NCBI GenBank assembly: GCA_030681645.1
Contig: JAUXRX010000056.1
Span: forward strand, 186,001 to 250,000
Source of the DNA: Archangium sp.
GTDB taxonomy: Bacteria > Myxococcota > Myxococcia > Myxococcales > Myxococcaceae
DNA: 64,000 nucleotides
Reading direction: 5' to 3'
The first letter of the stretch is position 1. Every line of letters starts with the position of its first letter. Below the pieces are notes generated by a model. That model saw only the letters and a program-made list of their open reading frames with translations. It did no database searches and was not told where the DNA came from. A program made the translations under genes and the position numbers. This document shows, piece by piece, positions 48,329 through 50,077 of this stretch.

Positions 48329-49228
48329 ATGCGTCGACTTTCCGCCCTCATTTCCGCCCTGCTCTCACTCTCCGCGTTCGCCCAGGCCGCGAAGGCGCCG
48401 CCGCCGGCCCCGGTGCAGACCGCCGTGCTGGTGGGCGTGGTGGCCGCGGTGAATGACGAGGTGGCGAAGAAGCAGGCCGATGCGCTGGCGAGCTTCGTGG
48501 CCGTGGCCATCAAGGAGACCACCCTGCCGCGCGTGTTCGCCGACCAGGAAGCGCTCGCCATCGCGCTGGGCAAGGGGGACATCGACATCGCGCTGATGGG
48601 CCCGCTCGGCTACCTGCGCCTCGACCCGAAGGCGAAGACCCAGCTGCTCGTGCGCATGGTGCGCAAGGGCAAGGGCACCTACCGCTCGGTGCTCTTCGCG
48701 CCGCCCTCGAGCAAGCTCACCTCCCTGGAGCTGCTCAAGAAATCGAAGACGCCGCTCAAGGTGGCGTGGGTCGAGACCTCGAGCGCGACGGGCTACGTGA
48801 TCGCCAAGGCCACCCTGCTGCAGGCGGGCATCAACCCGGCCCAGGCCTTCGAGGTGCAGGACTTCCTCGGCTCGCACGACGCGGTCTGCAACGCGGTGAT
48901 GGAAGGCAAGTACGACGTGGGCGCCACCTTCAGCGACGGCGCACCGAACGCCTCCAAGGTGACCGGCTGCGTGGGCGCGCTCGGCAAGAGGGTCGACACC
49001 CTCAAGGTGGTGGCGATGTCGAGCGAGGTGCCCAACGACGTGCTGGTGAGCGCGCCGAAGTTCCCGCAGGGCAAGGTCGACGCCATCGTCGCCGCCGCCA
49101 AGGCCGCCAGCACCACCGCCGAGGGGAAGAAGACGCTGCAGGCGGCGCTGCTGGCTGAGGGCGTGGCCGACGTGAAGGACGAAGACTTCGCCCCGATTCG
49201 CAAGGCCCTCGACGCGTTCGTGCCCTGA
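48329..49228 (+). CDS. PhnD-like periplasmic binding protein, orphan
   Basis: The 299-residue protein has a signal peptide (MRRLSALISALLSLSAFAQA) and the plan of PhnD-type phosphate/phosphonate-binding proteins: KGDIDIALMGPLGYLRL, then KVAWVETSSATGYVIAKATL, then GSHDAVCNAVMEGKYDVGAT. No ABC permease or ATPase gene lies near, so it may deliver a ligand to a distant transporter or act as a sensor. GGAGG precedes the ATG. It is divergent from the ECF sigma operon. Confidence 0.75.
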   Translation: MRRLSALISALLSLSAFAQAAKAPPPAPVQTAVLVGVVAAVNDEVAKKQADALASFVAVAIKETTLPRVFADQEALAIALGKGDIDIALMGPLGYLRLDPKAKTQLLVRMVRKGKGTYRSVLFAPPSSKLTSLELLKKSKTPLKVAWVETSSATGYVIAKATLLQAGINPAQAFEVQDFLGSHDAVCNAVMEGKYDVGATFSDGAPNASKVTGCVGALGKRVDTLKVVAMSSEVPNDVLVSAPKFPQGKVDAIVAAAKAASTTAEGKKTLQAALLAEGVADVKDEDFAPIRKALDAFVP

Positions 49229-49252: not shown

Positions 49253-50077
49253 ATGAAAACGCGCCCCGCAGCCGCCCCCGCGATTCCGCCCACCGCGAAG
49301 CCGACCAACCCGGTTGCGCCTGGTGGGGCGAGTCCCGCCACGGCTGTGCCAGCGCGCACCGAGGCCTTCCAGGCAGGCACCACCTCTTCACGCGCCGCGG
49401 ACCTCGAGGGCGCCTCGCACGGCTACACCTCACCCACGAAGGTGGAGTGCCCCTTCAGCGCCGACGAGAAGAAGGTGCTGTCTCAGAAGATCCCCTGCCC
49501 CGCCCTGGCCGGCATGTTCAACGCCGGCATGTTGAAGGTCGAGAAGGACGGCACGGTGAAGATCCCCGACCTCGAGCGCGCGCTCAGCCAGCTGGGACCC
49601 AGCGCCGTCACCCGCAAGGTGCTCACCAACGGGGCCGACAACACCGACGACGTGAAGGGCTCGTTCAACCTCTTCAAGCTCAACGGGTCCAACCTCGATC
49701 ACACCGGCAGCAGCGGCATCCGCCAGGACGGCGTTCACCCCGAGCGCTTCGAGCTGCTGATGTCCTTCAGCAAGGACGGCCAGCGGCTCACCGCGAAGGA
49801 CCTCGCCGACGCCGGCGAGCAGTTCGCGAAGGAAGATCCCGGCCTGCGCGGGCGCGTCACCCAGCTGGCCGAGATGACCATCGTGCTCGAGGTCTTCGGG
49901 CAGCGCGCCGCCGACGGCACCCGGTTCTTCACCCGCGAAGACGCCAGGCAGCTCTTCGTGGACGGCTGCATTCCTTCCAGCTGGCAGCCGCCTGCGCTGC
50001 CAGGGAAGGTCGGAATCGTCGACGTGCTCGGCGGCACGGCGCTGAGCCTGTTCCGCCAGCTCTTCAACGGCCGCTGA
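49253..50077 (+). CDS. Possible haem-thiolate peroxidase/peroxygenase-family protein
   Basis: The 274-residue protein starts with about 60 Pro/Ala-rich residues and no clear signal peptide. CPFSADEKKVLSQKIPCPAL follows; Pro-Cys-Pro at 81-83 with MFNAG soon after is the pattern of the haem-binding Cys in chloroperoxidase/UPO enzymes (PCPALN..ANHG). A later DHTGSSGIRQDG (149-160) resembles their EHDxSxxRxD motif, and VFGQRAADGTRFFTREDARQ with FVDGCIPSSW resembles the family's end. Haem binding and activity are inferred; the fungal EHD Glu is Asp here. Confidence 0.5.
   Translation: MKTRPAAAPAIPPTAKPTNPVAPGGASPATAVPARTEAFQAGTTSSRAADLEGASHGYTSPTKVECPFSADEKKVLSQKIPCPALAGMFNAGMLKVEKDGTVKIPDLERALSQLGPSAVTRKVLTNGADNTDDVKGSFNLFKLNGSNLDHTGSSGIRQDGVHPERFELLMSFSKDGQRLTAKDLADAGEQFAKEDPGLRGRVTQLAEMTIVLEVFGQRAADGTRFFTREDARQLFVDGCIPSSWQPPALPGKVGIVDVLGGTALSLFRQLFNGR

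Follow-up and report, generated by a model that had tools for sequence, protein, structure and literature searches.

Sequence and profile analysis of a candidate haem-thiolate peroxygenase gene of the bacterial UPO type in Archangium

Peroxygenases, which work with H2O2 alone and dispense with NAD(P)H and partner proteins, are in demand for C-H oxidation. The fungal enzymes are hard to produce, and there is a use for bacterial members that can be expressed in E. coli. A bacterial UPO family (BUPOs) was recognised only in 2026, when it was found by structure search (Lopez-Tavera et al., June 2026; PMC13394420). BUPOs are described as having a PCP motif with the haem-ligating Cys, an acid-base Glu with a His (or Lys/Arg), and a chloroperoxidase-like helical fold; disordered N-termini are common in clade III, which includes an active enzyme from Archangium gephyra, AgeBUPO (UniProt A0A2W5V8F7) (PMC13394420). 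The roles of the corresponding fungal residues, the haem Cys, the His and the acid-base Glu, have been described as well (PMC13394420, PMC9137552). In the fungal MroUPO, the ligands of Mg2+ are the Glu of E-H-D, the backbone carbonyl of the His and a Ser at position +4 from the Glu; the Asp of E-H-D is not among them (PMC9137552). The Mg-site residues seem to be completely absent from the bacterial proteins, and negligible Mg was measured in three BUPOs (PMC13394420). In their CO-reduced form, BUPOs show a Soret shift to about 440 nm.

Here, we analysed a gene within a 64,000-nucleotide stretch of Archangium DNA (the window), which belongs to a 10.2 Mb Myxococcota assembly that is 98.9% complete.

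The gene and its predicted active site

The reading frame starts with ATG and was read from the window as a protein of 274 aa, with the following features.

49253..50077, + strand: predicted bacterial haem-thiolate peroxidase/peroxygenase (BUPO type), 274 aa (ORF, profiles)
49253..49432, + strand: N-terminal region, residues 1-60, rich in Ala/Pro/Thr and probably disordered (hydropathy, composition, pLDDT)
49493..49501, + strand: P81-C82-P83, with C82 as the predicted proximal haem-thiolate ligand (alignment with the fungal PCP Cys)
49697..49711, + strand: D149-H150-T151-G152-S153, with H150 as the predicted charge-stabilising His and D149/S153 as possible Mg2+ ligands (alignment, E-H-x-x-S spacing)
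49871..49873, + strand: E207, predicted distal acid-base glutamate (alignment with Glu180 of HspUPO and Glu162 of CviUPO)
49955..49984, + strand: F235-VDGCIPSSW244, where the catalytic domain ends (alignment with fungal LFE-x-ERLP)

The segment 49253-50077 is a real gene, because its third-position GC is 0.90, its orthologs in Archangiaceae/Myxococcaceae assemblies are full-length and 68-76% identical to the window protein, and dS exceeds dN (dN 0.10-0.22 and dS 0.41-0.72 over ten ortholog pairs, with a pairwise dN/dS of about 0.14-0.4). An equivalent Met-Lys start is possible in all orthologs and, by sequence comparison, the core of the protein is under purifying selection. As the initial annotation had stated, the protein lacks a signal peptide: Ala, Pro and Thr are abundant in residues 1-65, which have no hydrophobic stretch and a highest 15-residue mean hydropathy of 0.58. 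The pLDDT of residues 1-64 is below 50 in the AlphaFold2 model. We infer a cytoplasmic location with a disordered N-terminal tail.

The motifs that the same annotation had listed are present in the translation, one of them in a modified form. PCP is P81-C82-P83, MFNAG is M88-FNAG92, and FVDGCIPSSW is F235-VDGCIPSSW244, whose C239 is replaced by Q/K/R in orthologs. DHTGS..R.D is found as D149-HTGSSGIRQD159, in which the S-x-x-R-x-D part is S154-G-I-R157-Q-D159, so that three residues, and not two as had been written, separate the Arg from S153; the final Asp, D159, occurs in the window protein and is Asn in several orthologs, so it is unconserved.

In the alignment with fungal UPOs, C82 falls on the haem-ligating PCP Cys, which is kept in all alignable members, and H150 falls on the His of E-H-D (His110 in HspUPO). 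E207 falls on the acid-base Glu and is invariant among the alignable members. P81-C82-P83 thus provides the PCP of the BUPO description, with haem ligation predicted, and E207 with H150 its acid-base pair. The comparison with bacterial homologues that had been suggested for this gene agrees with these assignments, in that of 26 alignable Myxococcota members 25 keep Cys, His and Glu together and one, L035, is without the His, and the equivalents of C82, H150 and E207 are jointly conserved in all 12 type A members. This joint conservation and the purifying selection on the core argue against a loss of catalysis, by which the protein would be a haem-binding or structural relative of the enzymes such as a sensor, a haem store or a pseudo-enzyme. 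Such a loss would be compatible with the low similarity to characterised enzymes, the N-terminal disorder and the lack of a peroxide-making neighbour gene, and we consider it improbable.

Relationship to Peroxidase_2 and the fungal UPOs

The search with PF01328 (Peroxidase_2) proposed in the initial annotation returned a match that is the sole Pfam match of the single protein and covers residues 81-247 of the protein and almost all of the profile (E 0.0051), although its 17.8 bits fall below the curated cut-off of 26.9 bits. The single sequence gave no matches in NCBIfam or the PDB, and a PF01328 search of the window's own genome gave no match, which reflects only the weak score of the profile there. 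The family as a whole is more readily recognised: PF01328 matches 11 of 12 aligned members, with a best E of 1.4e-8, and the curated cut-off is exceeded by family members in 3 of 189 Myxococcota genomes. When a profile of the 12 members was searched against the PDB, the top matches were all fungal UPOs (9tm7, E 8.9e-6; 7o1r, HspUPO, 1.1e-5; 9wa6, 3.5e-4), and the profile-profile comparison of the 12-row family with six fungal UPO chains gave a probability of 96.5.

The window's subfamily alone (12 sequences, distant ones included) gave a probability of 92.6 and a score of 53.4 against the fungal UPOs, while 100 column-shuffled controls scored at most 18.8. Since the real score is so far above the shuffle maximum, the motif order shared with the fungal UPOs is, at the level of profiles, not due to chance. 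The five closest orthologs alone gave a weak result (hhalign probability 32, score 32.2, with shuffled controls reaching 24.9; best E against the PDB only 0.26), and the claim of UPO homology therefore rests on the wider family. Through the family and its profiles, homology to the haem-thiolate peroxidases is well supported, and with the catalytic trio in register the initial reading of the gene as a candidate haem-thiolate peroxygenase with the motif order of the fungal chloroperoxidase/UPO enzymes holds.

AlphaFold2 was run twice, on the full length and on the core, with an alignment of five close orthologs. With a mean pLDDT of 53.5 (full length) and 62.9 (core), both models are of low confidence, and they contain no ligand. 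The top PDB match of both is the UPO 7zcl and other UPOs recur among the matches, with weak scores (Foldseek probability 0.51 at best, TM about 0.3). These model matches agree with the sequence result and are not independent proof of the fold. The poor models and the below-threshold scores of the single sequence would be compatible with an all-helical protein unrelated to UPOs in which PCP and the DH motif occur by chance; against this stand the profile-profile score far above the shuffles, the three catalytic residues in register and the relatives that pass the PF01328 cut-off, which make such a coincidence highly improbable.

We therefore favour a bacterial UPO: 49253-50077 very probably encodes a stand-alone, signal-peptide-less haem-thiolate peroxidase/peroxygenase with the family-I (short UPO/chloroperoxidase) fold. 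Such an enzyme would bind haem b with C82 as the axial thiolate. E207, with help from H150, would deprotonate H2O2 and drive the heterolytic cleavage of its O-O bond, giving Compound I, which may oxygenate (two-electron) or oxidise (one-electron) small hydrophobic or aromatic substrates.

Family tree and gene neighbourhood

Members of the family occur in 18 of 195 Myxococcota genomes. A tblastn search of plasmids gave no match, and the family profile found no relative in IMG/VR. In the core-domain tree, the window protein falls in a well-supported clade with Archangiaceae proteins and two proteins of a different Myxococcota family. The sister subfamily, type B, forms another supported clade, which holds a second gene of the window's genome (G000:C61:41005). 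The type B C-termini (L008, L009, L010, L011, L012, L021) have a conserved '..A(A/N/S)CPH(M/L)....P.....VVNAHTP' pattern, with a further Cys-Pro motif that lies beyond the catalytic domain, and an M-x-x-I-x-P...AGW pattern is common to the N-termini of several type B proteins.

Two relatives of the window's genome (L042:1279-2385 and L044:1135-2226) form a third, longer branch with a T-C-P motif, an insert between His and Glu and a spacing of 116; a TetR-like ORF, recognised by eye, lies just upstream of L042. The distant Myxococcota member at L035:1300-2214 keeps the Cys and the Glu, lacks the acid-base His and ends in 'KCPFGHG'.

The two neighbourhoods in the window's genome are organised differently.

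48329-49228, + strand: stand-alone gene for a PhnD-like phosphonate-binding protein (PF12974), whose end lies 24 nt ahead of the peroxygenase gene
L045:4578-6004 = G000:C61:40577-42003: type B two-gene unit in the window's genome, DcrB/PF08786-like gene and sister peroxygenase gene

Apart from one weak DUF4388 similarity, no neighbour of the window gene recurs in the orthologous loci examined, and no conserved neighbour in these loci points to a substrate or to a source of H2O2. The PhnD-like gene was considered as a functional partner and rejected, because its adjacency is not kept and the orthologous loci share no adjoining gene.

The type B gene lies in a conserved two-gene unit with a DcrB-like gene of about 140 aa, which is directly upstream on the same strand in all ten type B-like loci examined (L019-L024, L027, L029, L036 and L045, with L024 unplaced in the tree). 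Five of the DcrB-like genes were tested and match PF08786 below the cut-off (E 1.4e-5 to 5.5e-3), a family that includes type VI secretion Eag chaperones. The idea that the DcrB-like gene encodes a type VI chaperone that serves a secreted enzyme is unsupported in this organism, because neither of the two core T6SS genes looked for, PF05936 and PF05943, turned up in the 98.9%-complete genome.

The possible metal site and comparison with known systems

The initial annotation had pointed to an Asp in place of the Glu of EHD. D149 is indeed an Asp; the Glu that it replaces is the fungal Mg2+ ligand and not the acid-base Glu, which is E207. D149-H150-x-x-S153 retains the spacing of the fungal E-H-x-x-S, and D-H-x-x-S is found in each of the nine proteins of the core subfamily clade and in L031, while the sister subfamily has K/P/M-H-x-x-D. 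With D149 and S153 present, the window protein deviates from the BUPOs, all of which are said to lack the Mg-site residues. That absence is an observation on the set of proteins in the paper and not a definition of the family, and it is therefore no bar to BUPO membership. It is possible, if doubtful, that the window's D-H-x-G-S subfamily (Archangiaceae and a few other Myxococcota families) still builds a fungal-type Mg2+-haem-propionate site with Asp for Glu. If it does, this subfamily would be a missing link between two groups, the fungal UPOs with their Mg and the BUPOs that have so far been measured as Mg-free, and the published view of a complete absence of the site from bacteria (PMC13394420) would have an exception.

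The short (family I) fungal UPOs HspUPO (7o1r), CviUPO (7zcl) and MroUPO (7zbp) share with the window protein the PCP Cys, the His of E-H-D, the acid-base Glu, their order and the overall domain length. The window protein differs from them in having only about 20% identity in the aligned regions, no secretion signal or hydrophobic N-terminus, D-H-T in place of the E-H-D / E-G-D of the secreted enzymes (E-to-D at the metal ligand and T for the Asp of EHD), and a His-to-Glu spacing of 57 residues versus 70-72. The chloroperoxidase of Caldariomyces (Leptoxyphium) fumago (1cpo) is likewise a haem-thiolate enzyme with an E-H-D-type His and a catalytic Glu; it is secreted, processed and Mn-binding, and no direct profile match to it was obtained. 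A chloroperoxidase-type enzyme would have the same fold and haem-thiolate site and would mainly perform halide oxidation (halogenation) or plain one-electron peroxidation, not oxygen insertion. The E-H-D/Glu pattern is common to chloroperoxidase and the short UPOs (PMC6417270) and sequence cannot tell the two apart, whereas the published BUPOs, including the one from Archangium, act as peroxygenases on naphthalene and further substrates, and we regard a chloroperoxidase-type function as rather unlikely. For the favoured bacterial UPO, haem binding, H2O2 use and peroxygenase activity would be expected by analogy, because other BUPOs are active, including the clade III Archangium enzyme.

Enzymes of the fungal kind had been called rare in bacteria; BUPOs are now a published bacterial family with an active Archangium enzyme (PMC13394420). 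Since that family was published in June 2026, the window gene is best filed as a new member of it. By its published description, AgeBUPO resembles the window protein in coming from Archangium and in having the PCP motif, the His/Glu acid-base pair and a disordered N-terminus; it may belong to the window's D-H-x-G-S subfamily or to the sister K/P-H-x-x-D subfamily. Through the window gene the family gains a subfamily set apart at the metal site, and a second copy, of different organisation, is present in the same genome. The gene thus bears on haem anchoring without Mg2+ and on the bacterial use of UPOs. Compared with the published BUPO picture, two features may be additions: the retention of D-H-x-x-S in the window's subfamily and the constant position of the sister subfamily behind a DcrB-like gene.
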